Notes under the pieces: model-generated
Seen by the model: only the letters and a program-made list of their open reading frames with translations
Databases searched by the model: none
Told to the model about the DNA's origin: nothing
Part shown: positions 835 through 57,678 of the stretch, piece by piece
Position numbering within the stretch: the stretch's first letter is position 1
Layout: each line of letters starts with the position of its first letter
Made by a program: the position numbers and the translations under genes
From: Xestospongia bergquistia
Lineage: Eukaryota > Porifera > Demospongiae > Haplosclerida > Petrosiidae
Assembly: GCA_963965975.1 (NCBI GenBank)
Contig: OZ014413.1
Span: 7,261,501-7,325,500, forward strand
Direction: 5' to 3'
Length of the DNA stretch: 64,000 nt

Positions 835-1300
835 GAGTCCTAGATTACCTCACATAGCCAGCCCCTTACTCTTGTGGGTAGCTACGTAAGCCTACCTAAG
901 TTTGCATTTTCATTTTAGCTCTCTCAACACCAAAAATTTAAAGAAGATTCAACCAGACTTTACAAAAAGCTTTGCTAATCCTTAATAGAACAACTAGGAT
1001 TTATTTACTCATGATACACTCTTGAACTTCCCCTTTGAAGTCAAAAATTTGTTTAGAGTGCATTGAAGTATACATCCTAAAGTAGTCCCTCCCAAAGAAA
1101 TTCAGATATAGCAAAGTCTGATCATATTATGTTATATGGTCTTTCCGAGTGCCTAAGTCAAGTGAAGTCTGACAAAATGTGCCTTAACAAGAAGATACAA
1201 CATGCTTTTGATATAATTGCACCACCATCAGGGGCAGAAAACAATCTCTTGACATTTACTGATGCATTGATTTTATCAACTATCACAAGCTCATCATTAG
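835..1300 (+). pseudogene. Truncated third copy of the thiaminase I-like gene
   Basis: Positions 835-1080 match the 5' flank of the intact gene at 11135 (compare 10740-10985). The similarity then jumps directly to the 3' half of the coding region: 1085-1275 encodes the segment around the YG-SE motif and the GAENNLLTFTDALI motif. The first half of the gene, including the active-site Cys region, is missing, and the reading frame leaves the family after TDALI. The copy therefore has promoter plus a piece of coding sequence, joined by an internal deletion of about 0.9 kb relative to the intact copies. It is non-functional as thiaminase. Confidence 0.8.
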
Positions 1301-5400: not shown

Positions 5401-6279
5401 TGATACCTGACCACGTTGTGTGTAAAGTATTGTTAATCCAGCTGCATTGACAATAGGATTGGAACCATCAGAAGATGATGGATGTTTGTTATAGTAGGTA
5501 TCAGTAATGCAAGAATGAGTGTTGTAATCATAGTTATATGAGAAAGAAACATCATTAATATGTACATGAGAGACCTGTTCAACACTGTGCTCTTCTTGAA
5601 AAGTATTGTTAATATCCATGTAATGAAGAAGAAAGCCACTTCCAATACTCTGGTTGTTATTTTGGTGAACTTCAATACTATAGGTTGAATATGACATAGT
5701 AACACTATTAATAGTAGAGTTATATAAATTTACACCAATCATAGCAAACCCATATGAGTAGTAGATGTTAACTTGAGTTATATTGACCTGACAATGAACA
5801 AAGACTAAGGTAGCAGCAAAAGATGAAGGGTAATACAGAGATGAACTATTAAGGTAGTCAGTAATCACAATATCTTGAATAGTAGTAAGATATGTACCAC
5901 AATTCTTGAAGACCAATTGTTGTAGAATCACTGTAGTGTTGAAGAAAATTAGACCTCTTCTAGGTTGTTGAATGGCATCCAATGTATCATTATAATTACA
6001 TGTTATAATAGCAGATTCTGTGTAAGAATCACTGCTTATATTAATTATACCAGTCTCATAATAAACTTGACAGAAGTTACCAGATGAAATAGTGAAGTTG
6101 ATAGAACTGTTTAACAAGAACACAAGGTATTTAGAGGACCATGTTGTGTTACACAGGTATTGCTGTAAATCTGAAGATGAGTTAACATAGTATGTAATAG
6201 TACTGTCTCCATCACTATAGCTACTGAAGAGTAGTAGGAAAAGAAATGACAACATCAAAGTAGTGTTCTGTGGAGCCAT
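2422..6279 (-). CDS. Large beta-helix ectodomain / multi-TM membrane protein
   Basis: A single-exon frame of 1285 residues. Residues 1-24 are a signal peptide (hydrophobic core LMLSFLFLLLFSS). Residues about 70-640 are rich in Asn, Ser, Thr and short hydrophobic strands, with recurring NNxA..GGAI/GGM-type turns and N-glycosylation sites, as expected for a right-handed parallel beta-helix (pectin-lyase-like) ectodomain. A Cys-rich hinge (CEGTLCGRCSEG, then CQHC) lies at about 840-875. About eight hydrophobic segments follow between 876 and 1215, with the family-like motifs NGIIFYAQ, YLDGT and YKEGKQYWFTLRLLLL. The tail of about 70 residues is probably cytoplasmic. The gene at 44348-48532 shares the same architecture and motifs. 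The architecture recalls Cys-rich receptor-like or TRP-like proteins of sponges and protists, but the function is unknown. The start is the first Met and carries the signal peptide. Confidence 0.8.
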   Translation of the reverse strand: MAPQNTTLMLSFLFLLLFSSYSDGDSTITYYVNSSSDLQQYLCNTTWSSKYLVFLLNSSINFTISSGNFCQVYYETGIINISSDSYTESAIITCNYNDTLDAIQQPRRGLIFFNTTVILQQLVFKNCGTYLTTIQDIVITDYLNSSSLYYPSSFAATLVFVHCQVNITQVNIYYSYGFAMIGVNLYNSTINSVTMSYSTYSIEVHQNNNQSIGSGFLLHYMDINNTFQEEHSVEQVSHVHINDVSFSYNYDYNTHSCITDTYYNKHPSSSDGSNPIVNAAGLTILYTQRGQVSVHITESYFLENTGSFAGGMFILQYQTFADTNTTITNTIFHHNINYNQCHGAAIVFYRYSLYVSTNEIQLTPLYIFNTSFIKHLGIDNWPITNLDHGAVYIGIVNPGHVHLHIRFSRCKFLENLAANTGACLYATVYQFADNTGNVSITLDSTIVTKNSQYIGIPFVSSAGIFYFHRIAKVEITGTSIFSNNYGSVISSKGSNVYLSGNLTFNNNHATNGPAILLVGNCQLHFMSEVRATFTNNWAELLGGAIHARGNGKCAIHIDSNVEQVMFSDNEAKRGGMSIYAEPIFSCYINNSDFLESPHEVMTYYHQHFNFTKTKSNSSLLQISTIPQNLTEGADMQPPLQIYPGQEIYYCISANDALDRNVYSTIAIDIIRNYSQPNVPKTTKLWLSFDDQEQLIQEGKNCTTISMTVHGNDQFNIVDGMIVFSLYNQPAILTKIVKIHPCPLGFDLNKIKGICELSSSFDNLRKHDHLTVPIIGNVTSQTITRPLTFISWAGTIEYENKTKTQIGVSLTCPIGYCNSNHTLPYFYSGNVTTKQSFKLSDGITDYHPPLCLYQCEGTLCGRCSEGLSVVFGSTECQHCSNAWITSLSIYVVTGPLLIYLLYALRLTLTTGTLNGIIFYAQAANCGLLDMLRYHYFNSSIDRLSGFAIFIIHVLNLQTGFPRCFYNGMTELWKTSLDFMFPLYLLTIVIVLIILSHFSPKLSNRIAQSSVQVLVTVVHISFSKLLLQLINVMTYAEVYTSNDIHYVWYLDGTVKYGRYSHRILMIVTLVVVLGLLLPYVLLLLFAKPLRPLACTNKYLRPILEAIHAPYKEGKQYWFTLRLLLLCSLYGIYAKYRATDFYSLFFATNLMLVIFLVIQTYIKPFRSKLINLLDSGLMMNLSLIYLTYWYFFNTNPLMIKIICFSSVFLTFVTLVMVIVYHVLWVSRKVNTVKRWLEWKCEKFHFWYTKVSLFTHKTTNTQALLTDSSGSYYGSCSEFREPVLGHYSD

Positions 6280-6692: not shown

Positions 6693-9600
6693 CTCCCCTG
6701 GTTGGCTAGTAACACTAGTCAACAATGCAGTAAATAACTTGAAGATCAATGAATACAATGTTGTAAATAATTATACATGATCAAATAAAAAATCAGTCAC
6801 AAGTAACTAATGGTTATTGGTCCAATTCCGTACACCAGGTTTTCATTCTCTCCCGTGCAACACGTGCAGCTGCTCGACTTGGACATTTTGTGACTTCAGT
6901 AATTGTGTCTGGTAATTGATTAACAATGTGATTGAGTGTTCCAGTCTTGTCTATGTAATGAACCTCAAGTGGGTAAAGATGTTGGATTGGTCTCCTAAGA
7001 ATAGATGATTTTCCTCCCTTGGAACCAAGTCGAATGATGGCCCCTTGTATTTTACCATCCGAACCCATGATTAGGTCTTCAACCTTGGCTAGCCTCCAAA
7101 ATGTCCTTGGATGATGTTGATCATAGACCAAGACAATGTCTCCAATGACAATGGGATCACGAGGACTCTGGGTCCATTTGCCATAGCGATGACATTCCCT
7201 CAACTCTAATAGATACTCCTTCCTCCATCTTTTCCAAAACTGATCCATGGTCTTACTAAGGTGTCTCAGCCTCCTTGTGAAATCACCCACCATTTGAGGG
7301 CTGACTTGAAAGTCAGGATCATTAGAATTCTCCTGAATTGCGAATTCAGGAAGGCTGAGGAGCCATTATCAATAAGTAAATGCGGAGGGAGTCATTAGTT
7401 CTTCTAGGTCTTCTGTTGAGACATATAAAAGTGGATGAGAATTGATAATCATTTTAACTTCAGTGACAACAGTTGATAACTCATTGTAGGTTAGTTTTGC
7501 TTGACCAATAGTTCGTTTTAGACATCTTTTGGTTGACTTAACCATTTCTCACCCCACCAGGGGGCCTTCTCTAAATTAAAGTACCATTCTGTTTGCACAT
7601 CAGAGAAATATCGATGCACAATGGGGTCATCCAACATAGTAAAAATCGCCTTCTTGGCTGACTTAAACGTTTTAGCATTGTCTGAGATGATCTTGCAAGG
7701 GAAACCCCTCCTTGCTGTGAATCTCTTGAAGTATCTGAGAAATGCCTGAGCTGTTAGATTGGGTACAATTTCTAAATGAACTGCCCTGACTACACAACAT
7801 ATATATAGACAAATCCATACATTGTGGTTTTCCGTACTCTTGAAAGGTGGTACTTCTGTCACTCGAAATGGAAGTAATGGAGGTGACAAAGGTGGTTGAT
7901 ATGGCCTTCCATCAAATCTTTGACAAATGACACACTTATGCAATAGCTTATAAACAAAACTTCTCCCCCTGACAATCCAGAATCTTGATCGTAATTCGGT
8001 CAATGCTACCTTTACACCACCATGTTTAATGGTCTCATGGCATTCTCTTACTATCAGGAATATCAAGTGTTGTTTAGCATGGTGAGGTGCATAATGTGTT
8101 TTACTGCTTCTTTATTTGCCTCATTCCTTTACAATTTCCACAATTCCTTTGTCCAACTGGTCAGCAATGATAGCATCATATTCGTTAAGAATTTGTGGAT
8201 CTCGTCGAAGTTGTCTGAGAAGTCCAGTGAGTCTTTCAGGCTCAACTAATAATTATCAGGCAGAGGAAAATGTGGTTCCTTCCATGGTAGTTTAACTTCA
8301 TACTGACCATTCTTAAAGGACACGTTGTTGACAAACTTGTCATAGATGTGTTCTTCACTGTCTCTGATCCCAAGTGTCTCTAAATCCCAGAATCTCTTTA
8401 GTCTGGTCTCTAAATCTTGGCTTGAGTCTTCATACAATATAAGATGAGACTCTAACTCCAGAGCGTAGGTGGATGTGTAGTTGGTGAGGGACAAATTCTC
8501 TGTAAGGCCTTCAATTGGTCCTGACAGCACCCAACTGAGAAGTGTATTAACAGCTGTGGGGCAATTATCCTGAAATATCACCTCACCAGTGACCAACTTC
8601 CAGTAATCATCAGATCTTACTAAAACACTTATAGCTAACTCACCTTCATATCCAGGGAGATCTGCTAAGTCTAGTTCAGACAAATGAGAGTGAGCCTCAA
8701 TGGTGCAACAGATGGCTTTTCCAATAAGGGGCTCGCAGATAAGTGGCACAGTGAGGAGTGGTAGTTCCAACCTCCCTCTATCCCTTGTCCTAATAGCTAC
8801 CCTTACCACATCACATCCTTCAACTCTTCCCTCATCAGAACCAAATGTCTTAATGATTTTGATGACAGTATGAGCATTCTTGGGTGGTGTCACTTGTCAT
8901 CAGTACAGCAGTAGTAGGAGTATCTCTACATTGTCTATGGGGTGGAATCAGCATAGTCACAGCTCTCTCTCTTGTATAAATTTCCTTGTCAATGACATTC
9001 ATCAAAGAATCACTGTCTGTGACACTTCGACTCACTACAAGTCAAAGATCTTGTGGAAGTTTACTCATCAATATGGAGGACAAGAGACTAATATACGATG
9101 ATGGTGGTATTTCAAGAGATATTAAGCCTCTAACATGAGTCTCCACTTTGTCAAAAAGGTGTTGGAGTCCCTTGAGATTATGGAATGATACTGTCTCTAA
9201 GTTCAGTAGAGTATCCATATGTTTATTTACAATCTGACGTTTAGTTCCAAATCTTTTCTTTAAAATTGAGATCGTTTCTTCAAAATTAGCTGCTGTGAGT
9301 GTTAACCCAGATACAGCTTCAGCTGCTGTCCGTTCTAGTAACGAGTGTAAGTAATTAAACTTATCAATACTGGTTAGGTTCAGGTTATTGTGTACCATGG
9401 ACTCAAATGAATCCCAAAATGTAGTCCAAGTAGTCAGTTCAACATTGAACTTCTTTAAAATCAGTTTTGGCAGCTTAACCTAAGGAGCAGTACCTGCTTC
9501 AGAATGTGATTCAAGTAGAGGAGGAGGTGTGGTTCTACTGCCAATGTGAGGTTCTTCGACCAATAGTGAGTGTTCACATACTTTCACTAGCTAGAGCCGT

Positions 9601-10740: not shown

Positions 10741-11134
10741 TGACTTTTATTTTCTTGGTTAAATAATGTCTTACTGTCCTTGTGAGTAGCTACATAAGCC
10801 TATCTTAGTTTGAAACTGTTTTCATTTTAGCTCACTCAACACCAAAAATTTAAAGGGAATTCAACCAGACTTTACAAAAAGCTTTGCTAATCCTTAATCG
10901 AACCACTGGGATATATTTACTCATGATGCACCCTTGAACTTCCCCTTTGACGTTAAAAATTTGTTTACAATGCGTTTAAATATACATACTAAACCGATAA
11001 TGTTAATGGACGCTCCCCTTTTTTTGTTTAAAGGAGAAGGCTAGTCTCGTTTATAGACCAATATATATATACAGTGTCGTCCCTATACTCTCGACATATC
11101 GACAGATTCGGTACATTTCTGAGCTGGGAAAAAT

Positions 11135-12442
11135 ATGTTAAGTCGATTTACCAGACTGCTTTTCCATCCATATGTCGGGTATCTTGGGAAACGACTAACC
11201 TATAAACTACAGCACTCTAGAAAAATGGCATTAGAGATAACAAAAAATCATCTAAAAGTAGGTATCTATCCATATATTCCAGACCTTGGAAGTGATAAGC
11301 TGCAGGGATTGAAAGATTTTGTCAAGACAGAATTTGAGCGTGAACATCCTGACATAACAGTGACAGTATCCACAAACTGGGATCCTTATAAAGTCGATGA
11401 TGTAGGCAATAACTTGTCCTCTAAAGACGATTCCTTTGATATTCTTGAAATCGATACAGTAGTACTTGGAGAAGTAGCTGATTTAGGAGTCCTTCAAAAG
11501 CTGGATTCTGACAAATACAAGTTTCAAGAGAATTTTCTTGATGTTGGCTTAAATGCAGTTTCTTACAAGGACAACTATTATGCTGTTCCTACATTGCATT
11601 GTGCAAATTTCCTCATTGAGCTGATAGCTGGTGATGTTGATCCAAATGAAGAAATTCTTTGCTCTCTAGAAACAGGCAATCACAATTTGGGAGATTTGAA
11701 AGATGTTGTGCGACACTATCATAAACTTTTTAAAGGAGTTAGTCCACTAATTGGTGATTTTCGTGGTAAATGGACATTACCTTGTTTTTATTTGGATGCT
11801 TATATAGACAAACATGGTAAAGATAGTGTACAAGAGGGAATTGATGCACCAATTGATGAACCAGATGTTTTAGATGCCATGAAATGGTTCATTAAACTTG
11901 ATGAGGATACAGATGGTGATAACAAAGGAGCAACAGATCAGTATGATAGTGCCTCTCAGAGAAATTCAGACATTTCAAAGTCTGATCATGTTATGTTATA
12001 TGGTTTTTCCGAGTGGTTAAGTCAAGTGATGTCTGACAAAATGTGCCTTAACAAGAAGATTCATGCTTTTTGCATTATTGCACCACCTTTAGGGGCAGAA
12101 AACAATCTCTTGACCTTCACCGATGCATTGATTGTCAACAAGAGCCATTACTCTGATGTCAATAAAGCTGACGCTATTGATAAATTCATTGAATTTTACA
12201 CAAGCTTGAGGTTTCGAAACCAATATGCAGAAGGTAAAGATTTAAAGGAACCTCATCCTCCACGTTATGTTCTCATATCAAGAAAAGATTTTTATACTAC
12301 TGGATTTGGAGCATGTGAAAAGAATTACCAAATGTTACGACATGCTATGAACTACGCAGTTGCTGCTCCAAACCATGGTCTTGCTGGCAAACATGATGAA
12401 ATGAATCGTGTTCTGGTTGATAAACTAAAGTCACCTATCTAA
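11135..12442 (+). CDS. Thiaminase I-like protein, copy 1, with basic N-terminal extension
   Basis: Intronless, 435 residues. It resembles thiaminase I (EC 2.5.1.2), which has a periplasmic-binding-protein fold and splits thiamine by replacing the thiazole with a nucleophile. Visible family features are the start LKVGIYPYIPD, the nucleophile region VPTLHCANF (Cys156, equivalent to Cys113 of the bacterial enzyme) and MLYGFSEWL (Glu293, equivalent to the general base Glu241). The first 30 residues are rich in Arg/Lys with no acid (MLSRFTRLLF...) and resemble a mitochondrial presequence. The second Met at 11225 matches the start of copy 2, so initiation could be at either site. Bacterial thiaminases are secreted, whereas this protein has no clear export signal. 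The family assignment is from memory of the family, not from a search. Confidence 0.8.
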   Translation: MLSRFTRLLFHPYVGYLGKRLTYKLQHSRKMALEITKNHLKVGIYPYIPDLGSDKLQGLKDFVKTEFEREHPDITVTVSTNWDPYKVDDVGNNLSSKDDSFDILEIDTVVLGEVADLGVLQKLDSDKYKFQENFLDVGLNAVSYKDNYYAVPTLHCANFLIELIAGDVDPNEEILCSLETGNHNLGDLKDVVRHYHKLFKGVSPLIGDFRGKWTLPCFYLDAYIDKHGKDSVQEGIDAPIDEPDVLDAMKWFIKLDEDTDGDNKGATDQYDSASQRNSDISKSDHVMLYGFSEWLSQVMSDKMCLNKKIHAFCIIAPPLGAENNLLTFTDALIVNKSHYSDVNKADAIDKFIEFYTSLRFRNQYAEGKDLKEPHPPRYVLISRKDFYTTGFGACEKNYQMLRHAMNYAVAAPNHGLAGKHDEMNRVLVDKLKSPI

Positions 12443-13065
12443 ATGATGAATGTGGTTTAAAATGGTATAAAAATGCATGTGAACTTTAATATGGACTTTA
12501 GTCACAATGAGTATATATCATGCAATCTATTAATAGAACTTCCATATAAAAGCAATTTTAAAGCATAAAAGTCCCTTTTTACCAAAACAATGTAGTTAGT
12601 AATCTAATTAGTCAAATGTGGTTAATTACAATTGTACAGAATATATCAATTGTCAGAATAACTAGTCTTAGAAACTTAATAATTATATACGTATATTTCT
12701 ATATGGATTTTCTGTCAGTTTATAGTTTACTAGCATAATGCATGTATGTATAATGTAAATATTGTAATGAGTATCAATATTAATAACTAGTTTTATTGGC
12801 TATCTCATCTACTGAAACTAGTAGACACATACTAACTAACTTGATTATTATATTTACAGTACACAAATGACATTACATACGTTATCTGTTTATAAGTATA
12901 TGTCTTCTTTTATCGTTAGATGTGAAGTCAACTGAATAAATAAAAAATGTTAGGTAATTATTTAATGAATATATTAAAGAGAGCTAGATTTATTGACTAT
13001 ACTTGATTGCTAGGTGCTCTAGCTGTGTCAGACACAAAAACAATGTAAATTTACATAATAACATT
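12443..13065. other. 3' flank of thiaminase copy 1
   Basis: AT-rich. It contains patches that match the flank after copy 2 (16271-16640), so it belongs to the tandem unit. No gene is seen. Confidence 0.5.
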
Positions 13066-13308
13066 TGTGACCTGATTTGCAAAAAGGGACCACTTCTGTC
13101 ACAACATTTGTGACCTTATTTGTTAAAAAACACTGCTAAAACATAACAATAAACAGTTTTGCATACATGTAGAATAGTTATGCATATATATATAGCAACT
13201 GTATGTATACAAAACTGAGATGTTTGAGATGTTTTAACAGTAGTTTGTTCAAAAGTCAGGTCACAAATGTTTTGACAGAAGTGGTCCCTTTTTGCAAATC
13301 AGGTCACA
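13066..13308. mobile_element. MITE with about 50-bp terminal inverted repeats (copy 1)
   Basis: 243 bp. The left end TGTGACCTGATTTGCAAAAA and the following 30 bases recur as a reverse complement at the right end, with about one mismatch in 50. There is no coding capacity. A second, about 95% identical copy lies at 62800-63039. The tandem unit 2 lacks it at the matching place (near 16590), so it inserted after the duplication. The flanking dinucleotides here are TT on both sides. Confidence 0.85.
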
Positions 13309-14774
13309 TTTAGGTAAACAAAAGTGATACCAGTACGAGTTATACTGATAGCCACATAATTGATTAATACATGATTTATCAATTCATAACATGTACAGTG
13401 GACTCTATTCCTGCTTGAGAGGACTCAGATGGATTACAACTCACATAACTGTTGATTTATTTTAGCAATATAAACAGTAGCATCTAATCATCTTAATGAT
13501 CATTATAATATAATGATAGAAAGAGAAGGCAAGAGTATTATATAAAATTTTTGTCCATGTCCAACAGTAGGTATTATTGATTTTAGTAGTTGTAGTACTA
13601 ACATAAATCTCATGTTCCCATATAAGCAACTCGAGATAATGTAAGAATAATAAATAGCTCAAATTAACAATAATTATAACTGTAATACTTTGTTTATATA
13701 GAATGAACTAGTACAATAGCAACTGTTTCCATAAAACTATAATTGTCTGAGCGTAATAAACAAATAATGTCACATCAACAATTATTAATATTATAAAGTT
13801 AATCATGTTAATAGCACACATTATGATTAAGTGAATTCATAATTTAATGTAATATTTAGTGTAGAACAATCTGTGGACAGTTTGTATCATCTGAAGAAAA
13901 AAAGGAATCATTACTATGTAAATATGTGACCTAATAATTTGCAAAATGGGACCACTTCTATCAAATAAAAAAATCTCAGTATGGACAGAAAAAGTGATGA
14001 TTTCAATATTTTGGAGCAACACATATTTAAAAGCATAATAAGTCAGTATATCAAAGCATTAACAGAGTATTATATCCCATTCAAGCACAATTGTACCGTA
14101 TGAGATATCAGATTGTGATTGTGTGATCACATCAAAGTCTCTGTAATTATATTAAACACCTTTGATAAGCCTAAGTATCACTATAAATCATTTAAAGTAC
14201 TATTCTGTTCTTGCATTATATATTGCAATCAAGGTGTGATCTTGACAGTCATATCTCAGGTGTATGAGCATCTTGACCACACCCCTCTTGTAATATGTCA
14301 CATATGGAACTTGAATAATGTTTTCAACTAGTACAGCAATGACAGAGGATTCATAACAACTATTAATACATGTAATTAATAGAGCTCATTGTTATAATAT
14401 TATAATTACATAATAAAATTGCTTGATAATATTAATGCTGTGACATTACAACAAAAGAATGAAGACACACTCTGTGAGTTGAGCAACTTTGATGCTCTTT
14501 TTAGTCCAGACCTTCTATTTCATTTAAGGGAGTGGGTGGCTACATGAGACAACTCTGTGATTTGTAACATTGATGTTCTTTAGTCATATCTAATGATATG
14601 ATGTCAGCAATAAAATTACAATTGGTTAATATGACAATTTTAAATTAATTTGTATTTAGTTAACATGGAATCAAAAATAATCTTATCATGCTTCATGTCT
14701 CAAGTAGCAAACCACAAAATATTTAAATACAGTGCCTATAAATTTATAAAATTACTTTTAATGTTATGTTTCTT
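13309..14774. other. Intergenic part of tandem unit 1
   Basis: No gene is seen. It matches 16640-17910 in patches, including a GACCACACCC inverted-repeat pair around 14220-14290. It also holds the partial MITE at 13924-13965. Confidence 0.5.
13924..13965. mobile_element. Single degraded end of the same MITE family
   Basis: About 42 bp match the left terminal repeat (GTGACC, then TTTGCAAAA, GGGACCACTTCT). No opposite end is visible nearby. Confidence 0.6.
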
Positions 14775-14830
14775 ACCACAAGTAATTCTAGGACTTTAAT
14801 TGTTGAACTGAAATATCACCTACAAAGAAA
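14775..14830 (-). pseudogene. Stranded copy of the last KNL1 exon
   Basis: The sequence matches the exon at 17920-17987, including the TTTGTAG acceptor and the GTAAG donor-like sequence. It is shortened in the middle (the segment encoding roughly LPMKYRS is missing). It marks the right end of tandem unit 1 and shows that the duplicated segment included the 3' end of KNL1. It has no connected upstream exons. Confidence 0.75.
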
Positions 14831-15058
14831 CAAAATAATATATTACATATAACAGAGCTTCAAGCAGACTTTACAGGGAGCCTTTTGTTAATCCTCAGCA
14901 CTACAACTAGTCTTACTCCTCATGCATGATCTTTGAAATTCACCCACAAAAGTTTGTTTAACCATACAAACTAAACTGATAAGCGGACACTCCCCCTTTT
15001 TGGTTAAAAGAAAGGGCTGCGAAGTTAGCAGACCTATTCACTACAGCGCTCTAGAAAA

Positions 15059-16270
15059 ATGGCATCAAAAACTCATCTAAAAGTAGGTATCTATCCATGG
15101 ATTCCAGACCTTGGAAATGATAAGCTGCAGGGATTGAAAGATTTTGTCAAGACAGAATTTGAGCGTGAACATCCTGACATAACAGTGACAGTATCCACAA
15201 ACTGGGATCCTTATAAAGTCGATGATGTAGGCAATAACTTGTCCTCTAAAGACGATTCCTTTGATATTCTTGAAATCGATACAGTTGTACTTGGAGAAGT
15301 AGCTGATTTAGGAGTCCTTCAAAAGCTGGATTCTGACAAATACAAGTTTCAAGAGAATTTTCTTGATGTTGGCTTAAATGCAGTTTCTTACAAGGACAAC
15401 TATTATGCTGTTCCTACATTGCATTGTGCAAATTTCCTCATTGAGCTGATAGCTGGTGATGTTGATCCAAATGAAGAAATTCTTTGCTCTCTGGAGACAG
15501 GCAATCACAATTTGGGAGATTTGAAAGATGTTGTGCGACACTATCATAAACTTTTTAAAGGAGTTAGTCCACTAATTGGTGATTTTCGTGGTAAATGGAC
15601 ATTACCTTGTTTTTATTTGGATGCTTACATAGACAAACATGGTAAAGATAGTGTACAAGAGGGAATTGATGCACCAATTGATGAACCAGATGTTTTAGAT
15701 GCCATGAGATGGTTCATTAAACTTGATGAGGATACAGATGGTTGTAACAAAGGTGCAACAGATCAGTATGATAGTGCCTCTCAGAGAAATTCTGATATAG
15801 CAAAGTCTGATCATGTTATGTTATATGGTTATTCCGAGTGGTTAAGTCAAGTGATATCTGACAAAATGTGCCTTAACAAGAAGATTCATGCTTTTTGCAT
15901 TATTGCACCACCTTTAGGGGCAGAAAACAATCTCTTGACCTTCACCGATGCATTGATTGTCAACAAGAGCCATTACTCTGATGTCAATAAAGCTGACGCT
16001 ATTGATAAATTCATTGAATTTTACACAAGCTTGAGGTTTCGAAACCAATATGCAGAAGGTAAAGATTTAAAGGAACCTCATCCTCCACGTTATGTTCTCA
16101 TATCAAGAAAAGATTTTTATACTACTGGATTTGGAGCACGTGAAAAGAATTACCAAATGTTACGACATGCTATGAACTATGCAGTTGCTGCTCCAAACCA
16201 TGGTCTTGCTGGAAAACATGATGAAATGAATCGTATTTTGATTGAAAAACTAAATCTCCCTCCAGTATGA
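15059..16270 (+). CDS. Thiaminase I-like protein, copy 2
   Basis: Intronless, 403 residues and about 97% identical to copy 1. The nucleophile is Cys123 (VPTLHCANF) and the general base Glu260 (MLYGYSEWL), so both catalytic residues are kept. The start is fixed: an in-frame TAG lies 33 bases upstream and no Met comes between, so this copy lacks the basic leader of copy 1 and is probably cytosolic, unless an upstream exon adds a leader. The conserved context CTCTAGAAAAATGGCA around the ATG is shared with the internal Met of copy 1. The substrate (thiamine itself or thiamine breakdown products) cannot be told from sequence. Length agrees with bacterial and amoeboid thiaminase I (about 380-410). 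Confidence 0.82.
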   Translation: MASKTHLKVGIYPWIPDLGNDKLQGLKDFVKTEFEREHPDITVTVSTNWDPYKVDDVGNNLSSKDDSFDILEIDTVVLGEVADLGVLQKLDSDKYKFQENFLDVGLNAVSYKDNYYAVPTLHCANFLIELIAGDVDPNEEILCSLETGNHNLGDLKDVVRHYHKLFKGVSPLIGDFRGKWTLPCFYLDAYIDKHGKDSVQEGIDAPIDEPDVLDAMRWFIKLDEDTDGCNKGATDQYDSASQRNSDIAKSDHVMLYGYSEWLSQVISDKMCLNKKIHAFCIIAPPLGAENNLLTFTDALIVNKSHYSDVNKADAIDKFIEFYTSLRFRNQYAEGKDLKEPHPPRYVLISRKDFYTTGFGAREKNYQMLRHAMNYAVAAPNHGLAGKHDEMNRILIEKLNLPPV

Positions 16271-17880
16271 AAACGGCAGCTTGAAATGACAGAAAACCAT
16301 GTCTAATTGAAACTTAAATTTTAAATTAGTCACAATATGTGTACATTAAGTTCTGTAATTGTAGTAGACTTATTAATTAAATTCTAGGTAATTATATGCG
16401 TGATAATTTATTCATAGATTATTCCATATAAAGATAAATCTATTTTTAGCAATAAAAGTCCCTTTGTAGTAAGTAATCTAATTAACGTGGAGTAATTATT
16501 CCAGAATTGGATGCTAGAATTATTTGGTTAACTCAATTACTAAGTCTCTTAAACAATAAGACAATGTATATACATAATTGTAATATTGAGAAAACATAAA
16601 AAGCACTGTGAATCATACTGATAGGTATATAACTGGTCATTTCATCACAATGGACTGTAAATAATTCTATTATTCCTAATAATTGAGAGAACTCAGATGG
16701 ACCACTACTCACATGACATTCACTGGATTTATGACATGATTAGAAAACAAATCATTATGTGTCAGACAGAAGTCAGTGAGCTGTGCTATTTTGAGTTTAG
16801 GACCTTAACATTTTAATCATCTTAATGATTTCAAACCTGTATTACATAATAATTAAAGTGGTGACAAATATATTACATGAAAATAAAAATAATGTGATAC
16901 AGGATGTGTTAACACCACTTATAATTATGCCCATTTAGTTCAATAGCCAAGTGTTTATTTAGAATGGACCAGTATCATAGCAACTGTTGCTATGCAACCA
17001 CCATAGAGTATACACTCATTGTCTGAACAAATTAATTTATACTATAGTTATTATCATGTTTGACTTTATTATAATAACTAAATATTGTCACATCTAGAAA
17101 TATTTCAAATCAGAGTTAACATGTTAATAGCACACATTATAATGTAGTATGGATGTATAACTTCAGAAAATATTTAGTGTATAACAATCTATACACATTG
17201 TAAGACACTTTGTATCATCTGTAGAAACAGAAAAAAAATCATATGTATATATAATTAATAGCATAATGAGTGGGTGTATCAAAGTACTAATAATACATTA
17301 TATTCTATACAGATACAATTGTACTGTATGAGATACAAGACACAATAGATGTGATCATTTAAACGACTGTACCACTGTGTTCTAACACATACAACCATCA
17401 CAAATAACTTTTAAAATCTCTGTAGCTTAGTTAAGCATCTTTGATTAGTCAAAGCATCACTATAAATCATTTAAAGTATTATTGTCTAGTGTTATTGGAT
17501 ATTGGACTCTGGGTGTGGTCTCAATGATCATATTTTAGCTTTGTATGAGCACTTTGACCACACCCCTTTAGCAATATGTCACAAACAACACTGGTATAAT
17601 GCTTTTAACTAGTACACACTATGATATAGGATTCATAACAACTATTAATACAGTATACAAGTAAGAGTCACTGTTATATTATAATGACATTGTTTGATAA
17701 TGCTGATGGTGTGACATTACAACAAAACAATGAAGATGTACTTCATAATTAGTCTCATGTAGCCAGCCACTCCCTCAAATGATATGGGAGTGTCTGGTAA
17801 TGGCTATTGACTGTCTCTCATCTAAATTAATCTTACAATACTTCATGTCTCAGGCATCAAACTTTTAAATACAATACTTA
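16271..17880. other. Intergenic stretch between thiaminase copy 2 and KNL1 (convergent genes)
   Basis: AT-rich with no recognisable gene. It matches 12443-14770 in patches. A GGTGTGGTC / GACCACACC inverted-repeat pair lies at about 17513-17568, with a counterpart in unit 1. It could form a hairpin; its role is unknown. Confidence 0.5.
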
Positions 17881-20800
17881 TTAATTTGTAAAATTACTTA
17901 AAATTATTGTGTCCCTTACCACAGGTAATTCTAAGACTGATCTGTATTTCATTGGTAATGACTTTAACTGATGAACTGAAATATCATCTACAAAGGAAAC
18001 AAATCAAAATATATTAAATCAGTTTATATAAAGAACATGTAACACCCACACAATAATTACATGAAAGTCTGTTTTGTAAATCAGTGTTGTGTCATTATTT
18101 CTAAACCACTTACAAAGGCCATGTACACATAAACAAACATGGCAACTTTTACTACTTTTAGTATACATGGAGATTTGAATACATAGCTGACAATATTTTC
18201 TACTGTATTTTGGAGTTTATTTCTGTATTTCAACAACTATCTATTGAAGGATTTAAAATAGTCCTCTGACTTACACATTTATGGGTGTGGCTTCACAAAT
18301 GGTAAGTTTTAAAATTTGCAAATTGATTCAACCTTGTGTATTGTGAGCTCTTGTTAACAAATATATTCAAACAATCATATATACGTAGTACACACAGAGA
18401 TCAGCATACTTTAATATTGGTTCCTATTCCCAACTAAACCCTAAATGTCAAGCATTAAAGTATGTGGCCTGAGGTTGGGACTATCCTAATGAGCCATGCC
18501 TGAAGGTCAACTGTCTCACTGGGCTACTGTACAGTCTTCATACCTTTTAGTACTTCAAATTCAATGTTCTTTAATTTCTGGCAAACAACACCTAATGTAC
18601 TATTACTGGTACCTACAATATAAGATATTAATGAACTATATAACATATTGTTATTACCTCCAGTATCAAGATCAATGATAATTCTAAATTGATCATTGAC
18701 TTGAATAGCTACTGCATCATGTGCCCACGAATATACACACCAATTAAAGACCCTATAAAGAATATAATATAACATGTATAAGATGACTAATATGTTGTCT
18801 ATATATTCTATAATGAAGTGACATTATGAGCAAGTACAACAGATATATGTATTAAACAAATGTGTTAAATTAACATGATACAACATGGAAACATTTGTTA
18901 TGTACACTAATTACAACATTTCATTTCATCCAATACTTTGATTTATTGTTTAATTGTTTTATTAAGTACATTTTGTTATCACACTCTATAGTTTGTCTGA
19001 ATGAAGAAGACCCTCTATTAAAATTTAGTATGATATAAATGGAATGTAATGTGAAGGATTTTCTCACTCAAATTCATTTTCACCACAATATCTTTTAATT
19101 ACGTCATAATTCCATTCACATGCATGTTACTATGACAATGTATTTGTCCAGATAATTAGAATGTAATTTTGAATTGTTTATATACTGCATGACCAAGAAG
19201 AAAACGGCAGTTTGTTAAATCCTTGAAGTTAAATACACCAAAGATTCCAAAGTAGTGTTACACAGATAATGTATTGGCATATTGGAGATTGGCTTATCAG
19301 CTGAATATTACATATATCCATATCAGTTTGATCTTTGCTGATATCAGCCAATATAGTTACTGTGTATGTACAGTTACTATATTATGTGTTTGCATGTTAA
19401 AGATTGTTTGATTGTCAAAGAAAAAAATCACCTATTCGTGTTTACTTAATGTTAGAGAAGACACAAAGATAGTTGTATGTAAAGCATGTATCAGTATCAA
19501 GAGGAAGTACCAAGGCATTCAATAGAACTAACCTCATTTACACACATACATATTAACAAACAATCTTGTTACTATCAGGTGTGTTTAGTATATTAGGTAA
19601 AACAAATAATACAATACATTGTGTGAAATTTATCAAATCTTACTGCTTTAGAGATTCGCACACATTTAAAAGAACAGGATAGATAGTAAATAATACAGTT
19701 GCCTACAAAGAAAAAAATTGTTATACAATAATCTAATATTATCTTTGAACACAAAAATCTACACACTTAAAAAACCCTTAATAAGAAATGAAACATCTAA
19801 ATATACATGTGAAACTTCACAACTAATAATATTGATATGCCCTATCATCAACAAAGAAAACATCTATTCTAGAACATACTACATGTATATACTTAATACA
19901 AGAGACTTAAGTTTGGTAAAGTCAGATTTACAATACATTATATGTAGCTTACCAATTGACGTGACCATAATGCTTTCTGTAGCAAAGTCCCTTTTCTGTC
20001 AGCACTGTCATTGTCCAGGTTGGGAATACTATCCCAATTAATAAAAGAAAAATCAAAAGGGGTGTTACCCACTTCTGTGAGTCGAGCATAATCTATCATA
20101 CATCTCACAACACACACACCTACAGTATAAATAATAAGATTCCATAACTAAAATGATATGAATTAGTTTAATGTACAGTGTATACAATTTACAATAGTAA
20201 TTTCTTTGTACGTGTTATCTAAGCAAAGGACTTTGAGCAAATATAATTTTCACCAATCAAAGCTTGTGGATATGTAATATAATTCTTATCAAGTACATGC
20301 TAATTTGAAGATAACAAAGATTCTAATGAGGCTACTGCAGACAGGAAGTGGTATCTTAAAGGAAACTATACACAATATACAGAGAGAGAGGATTAACAAA
20401 AAGAATACCTAGAAAATGTCAATCACTTTGTGAATATTATTATTATAAGAACCACAAGAATGAGAGGAAGGTAATACTATGCAATGGTTGACCTTTCATA
20501 TGTTGCTTGCTATGTGGCTGTCCTTATTACCAGAGGTAACAATGGTCAGTTAAATGGTATTTTACTTTGAGAGTATCACATCTTTTATATCACATGTGTT
20601 ATAAAAACTCATTTTTATAAACTTAACTATAAATGTATTCAAAGCTACTCCTATTAAGTCTGGAGCATTAACATTTTCATTTGTTTCAATGATAACATTT
20701 CCTAATGTATATGTACAACTGACTGACTCACATGCATTTATTTTTGAATGGAAACTCTTTAGACACCACAGTAGCCTCTCATTAGTAGTATAATGTGATG

Positions 20801-23800
20801 TTAACCTGATATTGGTAGCATCATGTAACTCTTTAAACCTACAGAAATAACAAACAAGAATTAATCACACTAACTTCTTACAAGTACATGTACATGAATA
20901 CAATGTACATGTAGTTATAATAACATATGTATTATGTATCTCAACATACCTTGAATGGATTATTTCAAGCGTATCAATAAGGGGAAGACCCTCATGATTA
21001 TCATCTAAATGAACAGCATCTACATGTACTTGTTTATCAATCTCTATAAGAGGTGAGTTGTCATCATCATTAGTAGAAAGTGAAAATTCAGGAGAGTGAA
21101 AGGAAGTAGACAGTTGATGCTGTGTTTGACTCTTAGATTCATTTTGCAATGCAGGCTGTGTTACATTAAGAAAAAAGGTGGTACTTGTGTTTTCTTTAGC
21201 TTGTATGGTAGTAGTAGTATTCAATGAAGCTGGTACTGGACTATTATTAATATTAGAGCTTATAGTGAGAACTGGAGAGCCAAGGATGGAAGTATCTGGT
21301 GAATTAAGGAAGTGTCCACTGGTATGAACTACCTCATGTAACTGTTCCAGTTGTGGCTGTTCTATCTCATCTCTTAGGTCCTGTTGTTGTTGTTGTTCAA
21401 GTAATGTCTGCTCTTCCAATACTTTTTCTTCATCTACTGGCAATTGTTGTATTTTCTGTTGTTCTAATTGCTCTTGTTTCTTCTGTTCTTCAATAAGTTG
21501 TTGTTGATTCTGCTCCTCAATCAACTTCTGTTGCTCCAATTGCTCTTGTTTCTTCTGTTCTTCAATAAGTTGTTGTTGTCTCTGCTCCTCAATCAACTTC
21601 TGTTGCTCCAATTGCTCTTGTTTCTTCTGTTTTTCAATAAGTTGTTGTTGTCTCTGCTCCTCAATCAACTTCTGTTGCTCTAATTGCTCTTGTTTCTTCT
21701 GTTCTTCAATAAGTTGTTGTTGTCTCTGCTCCTCAATCAACTTTTGTTGCTCTAATTGCTCTTGTTTCTTCTGTTCTTCAATAAGTTGTTGTTGTCTCTG
21801 CTCCTCAATCAACTTCTGTTGCTCTAATTGCTCTTGTTTCTTCTGTTCTTCAATAAGTTGTTGTTGTCTCTGCTCCTCAAGTAACTTTTGTTCTTGTTTC
21901 TTTTGCTCCTCTAGCAATTGTTGCCGCTTTTGCTGTTCTTGTTCTTCCTTTTGACGTCTCTTCTGTTGTGCTTCATATTCCACTTCAAGATGTAAACTTT
22001 TGTTAGCATTAGTAGCTTGAACAAATCTTTGAAGTATACTTTTATCAAGGCTCTTTCTACTAGACAGTGACACAGGTTCAAGTTCAGGCTCACTGTCATC
22101 TTCCAATAAAATTGAAGGAACTTGTGTTTGATTAAGTGTACCATCTAAAATAGCCATCTCTGGAGTTTGAATTAGAGGAGAATCAACCACACCCCCTGCT
22201 CTAGGAGATTGCTGTAGTGTGGGTACAACTGATGCCAAATGACGTAATTTTGCTTTTGCTGGTGTAGTAGATACAGGAATAGTAATAGAGGGTCTTTGTG
22301 TAGAGTTAACTAATGAATGTGAAAGGTTATGAGATGGGCGTGTCTGGTTAGTAGGGGTATGAATGAGAGATCTGTTAGTAGAAGGTGTTGCCAAGAATAC
22401 TTCAGGTTGTATTAGGACACTGTCATTAATCAAAGCAAGAGAGTCCATTGAGCGTTGGTCTGTGAGCCAGTCACATTGTCCTTCATCTAATATTTTAGTT
22501 GTATCATGAGGAGGAGGAGAGATGTCGTCAGATAGATCATTAGAGATAATGTTTGGTTTTTGTAAGAAAGAATCTGGATCAACCTGTTAATAGAAAGAGA
22601 TATTAATAATACAATGTAAACTACACTCTATATCGAGAAAGGTTTGTGCTATAACAATGACAAATTACACTTGTATTATACATAAACATAAAAAGAATAT
22701 GAACATTCATAATTTTAAATAAATTTAAAGCTAACAACTAAATAGTATTGTACCTAGGCATTTGGCAAAAAAAAATAATGCCTGGTAATCATTGCTATGC
22801 ATACATGTAATTTCCATAGATTTCCTAGAAAAAGTATACTCTGGGAATGGTTTATCAACTGACACAAAATTCCTTTTACCACAATGTTTGACTATATACA
22901 ATGGCTAATTGTAGTCCTAATAATAATTTCTCTGCTGCTCTATTCTATGCTCTAAAACAGCTAAGATCAAATCTATCTCTTTAAAAGAGCAGCTCTTGTC
23001 GAATCTATATATGTGAAAAAGATGTTTTCATATGGTTAACATCTCATTTTGGAAAGAGCTTGTGTTTCCAAGAGCAGTTGTGCTGATAACAAATCCTTTA
23101 GTAGTTCTAATGATGGATCAAACAGTTATTTGCAAAACAAATCATTTTGATTCTAACTGCTCTGAATAAATGTATTACTCTTTGTTTGCGCTACTCTCTA
23201 CACAAATGACAAAACCTGATTGTTTGAAGTAATGATTAAACTTGCTTAGTGAATAAAATGTCATCAACAAAACTAGCCTATTGATTCCTCATTTTCTTTT
23301 AAATGCTGTAATTATGACATCATTATATTTCATAAATTGCAATTATGCACATGTGCAAGCGAACAGTCCTTTCTTTTGCCAAATGTCTGGGTATGAGGCT
23401 AACAGCTAACATGTACATGTAATGAAAGTCATCATCATTATCATCAAGATCAGTAAGATCAACAATAGGAAATTTAAGAGTCACATTCTTAAAACATGTG
23501 ACTATTTTTTTAGTGGATAGATTATTATTGAAATGAAATAATTTAAACTTTTGAACAAGACTTTAAATTTCAACACATTTATCAACCACTCTAAAAGCTA
23601 CACATGAGGCTATAGCAAAGTCTGAAAACACACTCTATGAATTGAACTAAAGGTACATCATAATATTACATAGCTACCAGAAAACATTACAATTCAACAT
23701 ACAACATCTCAAACTTTGTAGCCTATCACAAGCGCCTGATATTGTACATGTATCCTATTATTAGAATGACAAAATTTCTTAATATCTATACATACCTCTA

Positions 23801-26800
23801 CTGGTATATCAGGTATCAGGAATGTTTTATCAACACATGTATTGTCATCTTCTAGTTCAGTAGTAGGTAACACAGTAAAAGTGTGGTCACTTTGACAAGG
23901 AGCCCTAACTGATGTATCTGATTTAGTGATAGTTTCAATTTGATTTCTTTCTTTTCTTTTCTTCAAACTGTTAGCGAGTATTTGAGATATTTGTGTGGTG
24001 TGTGATTTCTGGCCTGAATAACTCAAAAATGGTGATTTCATACGAGGTATCCCTGATGTTATCATTCTGGGAGTAAAACGATTTTGAGATGAAGGGGTAA
24101 TTGCCAGTTTCTTTGACACCACTGCTGATTGCGAAATTATGGGACGTTTGTGGCCAGCTGTCAGTGAAGGAGGGTCTCGAATCTTCCACTCACTACTACC
24201 AACTGGTGGACCAGACTCTACTGGTTTAGCTTGACTATGAGACACTGATAATGTATTAATAGATGGAGTTATTGGATCAATAGATATTACTGGATTATTA
24301 TTCTCAGGGGCATTGAGAATAACAACACTCAGATTATTGATATTGGTTTCAGGGGCACTGGAAATTAGTGGAATGTTGGTACTAAGGGTATTGAGAATTA
24401 TTGGGTCTGATTGAACAGTACTAGTATCACTGGACAATACTGGATCACTGGACTCTGTACCTCCCCCATTATCAGCAGTACCAACAGAATCAGTTGTAAT
24501 AGGAACTTGTACTGGGAGTACTGTAGCACTAGTTTGAAGTTCTTGTCCACTTGTGATATTTAATTCTTCAGAAGTCATTTTTGAACATACTGATGGTGTC
24601 TGTGTATCATCTAATGTCATGGACATATCACCTCCATATACTGTTTCATAATGTGGCATCATTACTGACTTGTTATGGATCTCAGGTGATACTGCTGGTG
24701 TACATAAGGACATATCAGTAATATCTGCTACACATGTCATAGACAGATCACCACCATAGACTGTATGTTCCTTATTTGATACTACGACATGGGTCTCAGT
24801 CTCTGGGATATCAGCTGAGGGTGGAGCTGGCTCTGAACATGGTTTGGGTGGGGTTAATAGCGACATTGGAAATGATGTTGGATCAAGTCGACTCTTTTCT
24901 GATAGCTCATTTGATGTCTCATTGACAGCTACTACTCCAGTAGTAATAGGCTATAGACGATAGAAGATATCATAAATAATAATATGAAAATAAAGTGGGT
25001 GTGGTCAACAGATATTAGTAGACCATCTCATAGATAACAAGATTATGATTTCAAAATCATCATATAATTGTCTTATATATTGCTACTAAGTACAAAGTTT
25101 ATATAATTAGCAACAGTGTCTACAGAATACTAAAAGTTAAAGAATAGAACATAGGCAGAAAAATAAGCTAGCAAGAACCTTCAATCATGATCTGATCTGT
25201 GCATTGTAGCAGCGCTCATACTTAGAGTTAATGAAAGTCATTGGTTGGTATATGTGTAGGTCATTCAAGGATATGTTTTAATTTCATTTACAATACAATA
25301 AAACAAAGTGAAAAGACCTACAAATATATATATATATATATACATGACACGTGGTTCAAACCTATTATAGAAATGTCTGTCACAATCCATATGCCACACA
25401 GTAAATGTAAGGATAAAAATGGTCAACACAAATTTAATAAAATGTGACTTTTACTAGACCTTTCTTGCTATTTAGGAAAAAAAGAAGTGTTGGCTCACTA
25501 GATTAATATGTACAATCTATATATATACTGTGATGATATGCTTACAGTTTAGTTGAATTTCAACTATGACAACATTATGAACCTATCTTGGGTGTGACAT
25601 TGTAGTTGTAAAGTTTTTAGTGAGTCATGCTGAAGTTTTTTCCTATCTCTTCTTTATCTATCTTACTATTACTATTAAAGGTATTTTGGCAATTTCTGAA
25701 CTTTTCTGCAGAATCTGGAAAATGTTTATGTGAGCAGTTGTTAATAGTATGCAAAATATATGTGACATCATTGATGGTGGAGTGTGAGGAATGCAATTCA
25801 CTTTGTAGGGGATTTCTGGTTTCTGACTTTCCTAGATAGCTAATAGTCTATTTTTTAAAATAATATACTACTTTTTTGACAAATTATGTGGACTTGAAAG
25901 GCATTTTGAATAGCGCAAACCATCTCTCTAACTCATTTCTAGCTAGAATTATAACACTGTGTTAGTATTCATTCTCAACTTCAACACAGTATACTAGCTA
26001 CATGTGTGACATATGATCATTAAATTCTATGACTAGAAAGAATTCATTGCTAACTTTAGTATTATAGTAATCAATTTTTGTTCCAATCAATTACACAAGC
26101 ACTAAATAACTACAGACATGACAATATAGCTAACATCATATATTTTGCACTTGAAAATTATTAATTTTATTATACAATATTATTAGACACATAATGACTA
26201 TAGATAGACTTCTATATCAACAAGAGCTTATAAGCTTGTATAAGTTCCTGTTACTTTGATCACAGAAACAAACAACAATATATTACACTGAACAATACTA
26301 TCTTCATAATGCCTTTATTTACAAATATACTGTCCAGTCCATATTACAACTATACACTTCAATGGCTTCCCGCTTCACAAGACAGGCTTTAAAATTATTG
26401 AAGAATATTCATAATGGAGGTTTAACAGTCATGAATACAATATATATTATCAATTTGTGGTTTATTGCTTGTAAGCAACTTTATTATTGTACATTGTACA
26501 TTCTTTGAAAGATGGTTGATATAAGAGGAAACCCCTTTAATTTAAACAATTACATGTAAGTCAACCTTCATAAAATTATAGTGTGTCATACATACCTGAT
26601 TAGTATGGCACTCTATATCTTGAATTAAATAGTCTTTAAAGGGAGATCCCTGAAGTAAATGAGGTGCTATAAATGATTCCTCCAGTGTTAAACTCATATC
26701 TACATCCTCCATTACAGTAGCTCTCATCATGTCATTTTGCTCTAATAATATGTCCTGAATTAAATAAATTATGATACACTAACTGTCTATATATGGCAAA

Positions 26801-47100: not shown

Positions 47101-48440
47101 CAGATGCTCTGTTATCATTAAATATATTGATACCTTTAAATGATATAGGTACACTACTGGAATATAGTGTACCTGAACAAGTAAAGCTGTATGCATTATT
47201 TATATTATCACAAACAGGTTTATTACTTCTAAAAGTACATTTTGATAGTTTGATTGTTTCTAAATGTTGACTAAAATCAATTCCATTGGTAAAGTAGCAT
47301 GCTGAACCTTGATATGCAATGTTACTAACAAAAACTATATCACTAAGTTGAAGATTGAATGTTGAACTAGTCTCTATCATTAATCCACCACCAATAATAG
47401 CAGTATTGTTAGATATGTTACAAGATGTCATTTCAACCATGTTTACTAACTGTTTAATGACTGTACTGTACATAGAAGCATGTACTATTTTTACTCCACC
47501 TCCTCCTCTGTCTTCACTCAAACCAACATGATTAACATCAGTATTACTATTATTAGTAACAGTCATATGGCTTATCTCAATACTGTTATTATAAGCATTG
47601 TCATAGTAGCCTATAAAAAATCCACCTCCATGATCAGCCTGGTTATCTTCTAGTATGTTGTAGTACATGATAATCTTATTATTACTAGCCTGGCCTTTAA
47701 AGATAACAGACACTCCTCCTCCTTTACCAAACACATCACTATCTCTATGTTGATTACTTAGTTTATAATAATATGATAAAGAAGACTCTCTTTGAGCCAC
47801 ATTAGAAGTAAAAGTACAATTTGTAATGTTATATAAACTGGAATTGTTACCATCTAATTGTGAAGGACTCTCTTCAGGATAATGCCATCCATTCTCAGGA
47901 TTACAGTATGACCATTCTATTTGTAATCCACCTCCTCCATTCTCAATAAATGAAGACCCAGATATTGTTACATTACCCACTGTATTGTATATACTAAGAC
48001 CAGTACCATTAGATGACTCAATCACTACATTCATTATATGTACATTTTGACAATATAACATGTACACTGCCACTTGGAACATCAAGAGTTCAAATGATTG
48101 TGAAGACAAGTTCCTACTAGTACTGATCTGAACACCTCCACAATCATGGAGGGTGAGGGACTGGAGAATAATGTTGTCAGATTGAAAGAATGACAGACCC
48201 GTAAGCGAACTACATTTAATAACTACTTTCTGTTGCTCACCTGGACTGTCTGTTACATTACCAATAATTGCCACTTGGAACTTGTTTCTTAGTTCTGTCT
48301 CATTTCCATACTCCAGTGTATAGATACCAGGAGTAATGTAGATGACAGTGGAGTTATGTTGTAGTCCTTTCAGTGCTTGGTTAATAGTAGCACATGGTGT
48401 GTGTTGTCCACTAGTCCAACAAATGGTATCATTGATCCCA
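43960..48440. repeat. Segmental duplication, copy A
   Basis: About 97-98% identical to 53080-57420, same orientation. It covers the RRM-like remnant and nearly the whole beta-helix/multi-TM gene. Confidence 0.9.
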
Positions 48441-48532
48441 GCAGTAGTACTAACATAGATCTTATGTTCCCAGTTGTAGGAAAGAACAACTTGAGATAAT
48501 AGAATATTAAGAAAGACAACTGAACAAGACAT
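44348..48532 (-). CDS. Beta-helix ectodomain / multi-TM protein, gene A, one in-frame stop
   Basis: One frame of 1394 codons from ATG 48532 to the stop at 44348, interrupted by a single TAA at 46700-46702. Copy B has TCA there. Signal peptide: SVVFLNILLSQVVLSYN. The ectodomain (about 25-700) shows beta-helix repeats (FIENGGGGLQI, NNTAIIGGGLMIE, FTGNSGSYGGAIALYE) with many N-glycosylation sites. A Cys-rich region (about 700-890) leads to about eight hydrophobic segments (about 900-1285) with NGYVFYCQ, YYDGTLNYFGYPHAF and DDYTGTF...GFYLLLRF, as in the gene at 2422-6279. The tail has about 110 residues. Either the allele is a recent null, or the two halves (46700-48532 secreted ectodomain; 44348-46576 membrane part) are made separately. 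The rest of the frame is clean, which favours a recent nonsense change or a sequence error. Confidence 0.8.
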
Positions 48533-57420: not shown

Positions 57421-57678
57421 AGTAAATATGCCATGTGATGACTGGAATATATATACAGTAAGAACAACACATAACTAATTGAAATTTTGTCTATATTTGC
57501 AAAAAAATATATCCATTAAATGGCTGAAAATTTTATTATAATAATGAATTAAGAATGTTCACTGAAAAATTCTAAAAAATCAAAAATATTGAAATTTATA
57601 AGAAAATACAATATTAATTTCAATCAAGGTGAATGTACATGTAGTGTATGTTATGTCTTCACTATGTATAATACACCA
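57421..57678. other. Spacer with an inverted piece of the gene A/B upstream region
   Basis: 57423-57510 matches 60787-60880 (ATGTGATGACTGGAATATAT), which is the reverse complement of the gene A upstream region near 48660. The remainder is the AT-rich 3' flank of the transporter. Confidence 0.7.

Follow-up and report, generated by a model that had tools for sequence, protein, structure and literature searches.

A 64,000-nucleotide stretch of the genome of the sponge Xestospongia bergquistia (here called the window; forward strand 7261501-7325500 of contig C3, in a 146.5-Mb genome of 21 contigs) contains two intact genes, A1 and A2, that belong to a family of thiaminase I-like genes in an animal-type genome. 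The family is real, resident, present in several copies and under constraint, and the enzyme is of a known kind, though few records exist of such a host. To judge from the sequences, the pair is probably part of an expanded resident family of working thiaminase I-like enzymes of the solute-binding protein (SBP) type, with bacterial ancestry, in a demosponge-like animal. Coordinates are window positions unless a contig is named (Table 1).

Homology to thiaminase I and conservation of the active site

The original prediction, made from the letters alone, had described two intact, intronless thiaminase I-like genes with a nucleophile motif VPTLHC and a general-base motif YG-SE, and both parts of this description are borne out. 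A1 and A2 are each a single open reading frame (ORF) with matches to the thiaminase_BcmE model TIGR04541 (A1: E 3.6e-17, 62.4 bits, positions 25-346 of 381; A2: E 2.6e-16, 59.5 bits, positions 26-345) and to thiaminase I entries of the PDB, and the Cys and Glu of VPTLHC and YG[YF]SE align with Cys113 and Glu241 of the Paenibacillus enzyme 2THI. The two proteins are 96% alike; a third member of the same branch, A3, scores 52.4 bits over model positions 26-268 only. When A1 was searched against the PDB with phmmer, 2thi came first (E 4.8e-6) and 4kys was also matched (E 2.4e-4), and positions 19-383 of a profile built from eight proteins of the sponge family matched 2thi (E 3e-7). Branch A is 24-25% identical to 2THI.

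The active site was compared in an alignment of 12 sequences comprising A1, A2, A3, B4-B8 (the second branch of the family), three bacterial proteins (Paenibacillus L030, L033 from a genome of the same phylum, and Bradyrhizobium L041) and Naegleria 4hcw in two pieces. B9, whose protein does not differ from that of B8, was omitted. The positions of 2THI Tyr50, Asp64, Cys113, Glu241 and Asp272 are kept in all 12 sequences (Naegleria being partial), and those of Cys113 and Glu241 in all eight distinct intact copies of the sponge. Tyr16 is kept in 10 of the 12 (Phe in L033 and Naegleria), as is Tyr222 (Gln in L033; the Naegleria pieces do not cover this position). The Cys113 and Glu241 positions in the 2thi profile alignment were counted by hand; the other 2THI sites are those that we assumed worth comparing. 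In thiaminase I the conserved active-site Cys is activated by Glu, and the myxobacterial CcThi1, likewise a remote thiaminase I (17.95% identical to 2THI), needs this pair for activity, its Cys/Glu double mutant being inactive (PMC10499793).

The same residues bear on whether these proteins might be solute-binding relatives that bind or carry vitamin B1 without catalysis. Their fold is that of a binding protein, and three of eight family members match SBP_bac_1 at E 0.01 or better, a weak likeness (21.9 bits for A1 and for A2, under the Pfam gathering score of 26). However, Cys and Glu stand in all eight distinct intact copies and are absent from an ordinary sugar-binding SBP (Mesobacillus L050, a weak A1 match among plasmids; n=1), in which none of the seven examined sites is kept. 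The original prediction had allowed for solute-binding matches devoid of the catalytic Cys; that Cys is present, and we regard binding alone as quite improbable.

A resident family across the genome

The A1 query found 15 places in the genome, nine of them with open full-length frames, and the B5 query found 14, adding three fragments (L027-L029) on contig C2; all such locus counts are lower bounds. The predicted local expansion is correct as regards tandem duplication but understated, since the family has two branches with at least nine intact loci, spread over three chromosomes. Identity to A1 is 28-34% in the six B loci. The 12-residue N-terminal hydropathy maximum is 1.94-2.40 in the five distinct B proteins, whereas the three A proteins reach 0.60-0.63. 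Seven Cys, including the catalytic one, are common to the B proteins. Because the B proteins have hydrophobic starts and the A proteins do not, branch B is probably secreted and branch A probably intracellular, in the cytosol. B4 and B6 carry TATATAAAGAG about 55 bp upstream of the presumed ATG.

Several features tie the family to its host. The G+C content at third codon positions (GC3) is 0.227-0.297 in the nine copies. Two window ORFs assumed to be of the host have values of 0.247 and 0.235, and the Paenibacillus gene has one of 0.671. Nonsynonymous (dN) and synonymous (dS) divergence was estimated by NG86, dS being saturated in the more distant pairs; dN/dS is 0.19 for A1-A3 (dN 0.056, dS 0.299), 0.21 for A2-A3 (dN 0.066, dS 0.321) and 0.33 for B4-B6 (dN 0.091, dS 0.275). 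A1 and A2 are 97% identical over 15032-16254 (dS 0.05) and 36-54% identical in 100-column blocks outside it, although parts of their upstream stretches can still be aligned. A recent segmental duplication was rejected in view of such high coding identity between poorly aligning flanks; the sequences are better explained if the tandem duplication is old and gene conversion has since made its coding parts alike. Host-like GC3, dN/dS near 0.2 in A1-A3 and A2-A3 and this apparent gene conversion together indicate resident genes.

Bacterial DNA that contaminates the assembly or was joined to it as a chimera would explain why a bacterial-type family has coding regions without introns, yet it is hardly credible: the nine intact loci lie on contigs of 11-28 Mb, GC3 is host-like, relics and gene conversion are present, TATA-like and poly(A)-like signals accompany the genes, and retroelement and beta-helix ORFs lie within the window. 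The chimera that the original prediction had named as a possible objection is therefore unlikely.

The broken third copy predicted at 835-1300 is indeed found, as a relic at 871-1272. Its upstream piece matches 10779-10993, upstream of A2, at 87.4%, and its coding remnant matches the A2 coding region at 87.5%; at the protein level the remnant spans A1 residues 238-302 only, so the nucleophile-bearing part is missing. The A2 frame is open back to 11135, which would give 435 aa, but the start is probably at 11225, because high similarity to the other two branch-A copies begins just 19-27 bp upstream of that ATG, and because ACTACAG, a possible 3' splice site, is common to the three A copies, followed in each by 12 nt and the ATG. 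Mitochondrial targeting by the extension 11135-11224 was considered and is unlikely, as high similarity to A1 and A3 begins after most of it. A ATAAAAGTCCCTTT motif lies downstream of both A1 and A2; no candidate poly(A) signal was seen in the 200 bases downstream of A3.

Table 1. Features of the window and genomic locations of the family (locus labels in brackets)
Feature	Position	Strand	Remarks
A1 (L001), thiaminase I-like gene	15059..16270	+	Branch A, contig C3; intact, 403 aa, without hydrophobic N-terminal segment
A1 catalytic pair	Cys123 + Glu260		2THI Cys113 + Glu241, from alignment
A2 (L002), thiaminase I-like gene	11225..12442	+	Branch A, contig C3; intact, 405 aa counted from the common ATG
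A2 catalytic pair	Cys126 + Glu263		
Relic copy	871..1272	+	Piece 871-1081 resembling 10779-10993, then coding remnant 1083-1272
Similarity onset before A1, with ACTACAG	15032..15058	+	Possible 3' splice site of a putative 5'-UTR intron
Same possible 3' splice site before the common ATG of A2	11198..11224	+	Putative
AATAAAAGTCCCTTT	16451..16465	+	Candidate poly(A) signal of A1, function suggested by sequence
CATAAAAGTCCCTTT	~12564		Downstream of A2; candidate poly(A) signal, putative function
Retroelement remnants DUF5641, Integrase_H2C2, DUF1759	6817..9479	-	Upstream of A2; eukaryotic context
Large ORF	2422-6279	-	By eye, repeat ectodomain then transmembrane segments; no Pfam match below E 0.09
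Beta_helix (PF13229) ORF	46703-48598	-	Pfam match
Beta_helix (PF13229) ORF	55369-57474	-	Pfam match
A3 (L003)	Contig C3		Branch A
B4 (L004), B6 (L006), B8 (L008), B9 (L009)	Contig C2		Branch B
B5 (L005), B7 (L007)	Contig C1		Branch B
Further relics	C3:7.087 Mb, C6:5.496 Mb, C2		

On contig C2 (about 15.183-15.197 Mb), the stretches bearing B8 and B9 show 99.95% identity across a compared length of 4,047 bases, and each gene stands beside a B6-type gene, one of which is frameshifted (L008, L009, L045, L046): the B6 copy adjoining B9 is split into two frames. This may reflect a very recent tandem duplication or an uncollapsed assembly duplicate. ORFs that look EF-hand-like by eye lie on the same contig beside B4 and B8/B6 (L044:1036-1425 and L045:789-1097) and were perhaps duplicated along with the B genes.

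As to the rest of the window, the retroelement remnants upstream of A2 presumably belong to a BEL/Pao-type element. A KNL1 gene that had been named as the clearly eukaryotic neighbour was not confirmed, the large ORFs at 20868-22586 and 23712-24950 being without a Pfam match; two YGGD[LM]SMT stretches in the latter may lie behind the label. The large ORF at 2422-6279 and the two beta-helix ORFs perhaps form a local surface-protein family. Elsewhere in the assembly, the mitochondrial genome is contig C21, of 18,997 bp. Its cox1 match reads through nine TGA, one ORF looks atp9-like by eye, and the 25 predicted tRNAs all lie on the same strand; we take this to be a demosponge layout. Fragments of cox1 in nuclear contig C6, at 3.155 and 3.199 Mb (L035-L037), are likely nuclear copies of mitochondrial DNA.

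Ancestry of the sponge genes

Homologues were sought in prokaryotic, viral, phage and plasmid collections and in the PDB. Against the prokaryotic genomes, the A1 query gave 22 pattern matches and no relative, and a query of 2THI with branch A gave 33 pattern matches and one relative, the Paenibacillus dendritiformis protein L030. A scan of viral contigs gave 45 pattern matches and no relative, the A1 query found nothing among phages, and plasmid matches numbered two records for A1 (E 2e-4 and 7e-3), one for L033 and three for L030. TIGR04541 was matched at E <= 1e-10 in two of 398 genomes drawn from the phylum of L030, including the genome of L030, with one match over the cut-off. No close donor was thus found in the prokaryotic, viral, phage and plasmid collections, metagenomes and eukaryotes lying outside that search.

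A tree of 12 rows (eight sponge proteins, three bacterial ones and part of one Naegleria row) separates the sponge proteins from the three bacteria and Naegleria with support of 100/100, and each of the groups A and B is set off from all other rows by a branch (100/99 and 98/97). Naegleria joins Paenibacillus (82/82), a join flagged as possibly a false long-branch one; further warnings concern long branches in general, a possibly false join of L033 and Bradyrhizobium, and the odd composition of the latter. The topology fits a single entry followed by an early A/B split, and bacterial ancestry of the sponge genes is plausible. Of the horizontal acquisition proposed in the original prediction, thiaminase I homology in an animal-type genome and a plausible bacterial origin stand, and the transfer from a donor is putative.

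Instead of a transfer, the origin might be a eukaryotic gene of great age that survives in sponges, rotifers and Naegleria but has disappeared from other lineages. We consider this doubtful; it concerns descent only and is compatible with working enzymes. The deep A/B split and the rotifer homologs mentioned in PMC10499793 speak for it. Naegleria 4hcw is picked up by the mixed profile A5 (E 2.9e-11), though not, up to E 0.1, by the profile of sponge proteins only; in the small tree, however, Naegleria joins Paenibacillus and not the sponge, with the flag given above. The N. gruberi thiaminase I (4HCW) resembles the sponge proteins in its eukaryotic host and aligned Cys/Glu pair, but is very distant and stands apart from them in the tree.

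Among the bacterial rows, the gene at L041:2863-4161 on the Bradyrhizobium japonicum plasmid p1S06B is annotated as an extracellular solute-binding protein. With the Cys/Glu pair present and 109.6 bits against thiaminase_BcmE, it is probably a thiaminase I-like gene that has escaped recognition; its plasmid is typed as conjugative.

Function and comparison with other thiaminases

Several results weigh against reading the family as working thiaminases of the bacterial kind. With 52-62 bits, all three A genes fall far under the curated equivalog cut-off of 175 for TIGR04541; that cut-off is also missed by two bacterial rows (L033, 132.7 bits, and L041), and we file the family as thiaminase I-like, not as BcmE equivalogs. 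TIGR04541 matches one of the five B proteins (B4, 17.8 bits, positions 24-245); with B5 as phmmer query against the PDB the sole thiaminase match was 4hcw, whose E of 0.042 is no better than that of a myosin light chain, and in the plasmid collection B5 had no match. Taken by itself, branch B has next to no likeness to known thiaminases, and it is therefore connected with thiaminase I through branch A and the common sites. The Tyr18, Tyr239 and Tyr270 positions vary among the 12 aligned sequences. AlphaFold models were unusable (mean pLDDT 37.8 with six sequences and 43.9 with nine); a Foldseek search of a model whose input alignment included a bacterial thiaminase ranked 3thi first (E 4.1e-5), but with a TM score of 0.28, a root-mean-square deviation of 20.9 and maltose-binding proteins close behind, and was not used as evidence. 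Constraint is weaker in recent pairs (dN/dS 0.39 for A1-A2 and 0.50 for B5-B7), and PF18210, sought for KNL1, matched nowhere in the genome, every control in that search being silent as well. TenA, ThiE and ThiD (HMP-P kinase), each of which matched several control genomes, were not detected in a six-frame search of the sponge genome, and a self-contained salvage loop in the host is therefore not supported.

The low equivalog-model scores, above all in branch B, the modest identity of branch A to 2THI and the changes at the three Tyr positions might also be expected if fold and catalytic pair had been kept for another substrate, such as degraded thiamine, thiamine phosphate or an antivitamin, the proteins then being base-exchange or clean-up enzymes. 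Against this, Tyr50, Asp64 and Asp272 are kept together with the catalytic pair in every aligned sequence, and we think such a change of substrate unlikely.

The working thiaminases that we favour can be set beside several known systems. The bacterial thiaminases I (BcmE; Paenibacillus 2THI, Clostridium 4KYS) resemble the sponge proteins in SBP-type similarity over most of the length and have the five invariant positions in common with them; the sponge genes differ in their animal genome, in falling under the curated cut-off and, in branch A, in lacking a signal peptide. CcThi1 works by thiamine depletion of an auxotroph, starving Phytophthora, and, unlike the sponge proteins, is a bacterial lipoprotein released on vesicles (PMC10499793). 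The same paper mentions rotifer and cyanobacterial producers of thiaminase I; the rotifers, an animal group too, are reported there to have thiaminase I homologs. The zebrafish enzyme, related to those of carp and alewife, is animal-encoded and has a tandem paralog pair, but it is TenA-like and without similarity to the microbial thiaminases I compared there (PMC9839694); the corresponding TENA_THI-4 (PF03070) had no match in the Pfam scan of A1 and A2 nor in the search of the sponge genome. A reading of the genes as NMT1/THI5 was rejected, PF09084 being without a match in the genome. The earlier description of thiaminase I as mainly bacterial with scattered eukaryotes such as Naegleria is incomplete, omitting the rotifer homologs (PMC10499793) and the TenA-like zebrafish enzyme (PMC9839694). 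Among the papers listed, titles and abstract openings gave no sign of an SBP-type thiaminase from a sponge, a scope that takes in neither most of the subscription literature and supplementary files nor eukaryotic sequence databases.

Thiamine metabolism in the sponge genome includes a TPK match (PF04263, E 2.2e-16) that runs across stops, as expected of a gene divided by introns; genes of this kind thus seem to be within reach of the six-frame search. It also includes a ThiM ORF of 271 aa on contig C1 (PF02110, E 2.1e-75) that exceeds two NCBIfam cut-offs (309.2 against 180, 277.8 against 256.4). This full-length ORF lies at C1:27937543-27938280 (L042, L043). ThiM without detected ThiE and ThiD is unusual for an animal. 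A complete salvage loop has been proposed for Paenibacillus (PMC5627462), with no supported counterpart in the sponge genome, and thiamine salvage in Burkholderia is cited in PMC10499793. Neither a TPP riboswitch nor another Rfam RNA reached a gathering match in 123,204 bases (the window and a seven-source set).

If the sponge proteins work as the bacterial enzyme does, their conserved Glu would activate the conserved Cys, which would attack the pyrimidine of thiamine, so that the thiazole would leave and the pyrimidine would pass to a second nucleophile; the released thiazole could then be phosphorylated by ThiM. In the role that we think most likely, the putatively secreted branch would destroy thiamine or its analogues outside cells and so limit B1-dependent microbes or food organisms, and the putatively intracellular branch would turn over thiamine or toxic analogues. 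Very tentatively, the sponge may have domesticated a bacterial thiaminase I and split it into intracellular and secreted forms, secreted destruction of vitamin B1 controlling microbes in and around the body while ThiM recovers thiazole, as a vitamin-based defence or means of microbiome control.

The function of thiaminase I has been termed unsolved (PMC9839694). An early-branching animal with a multi-copy SBP-type family divided by likely compartment, and with ThiE, ThiD and TenA undetected, is one in which compartment and tissue could tell salvage, defence and analogue clean-up apart. The sponge is thus a further animal suited to the question of what organisms gain by destroying vitamin B1. 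Should the enzymes prove active, animals would encode two unrelated kinds of thiaminase I.

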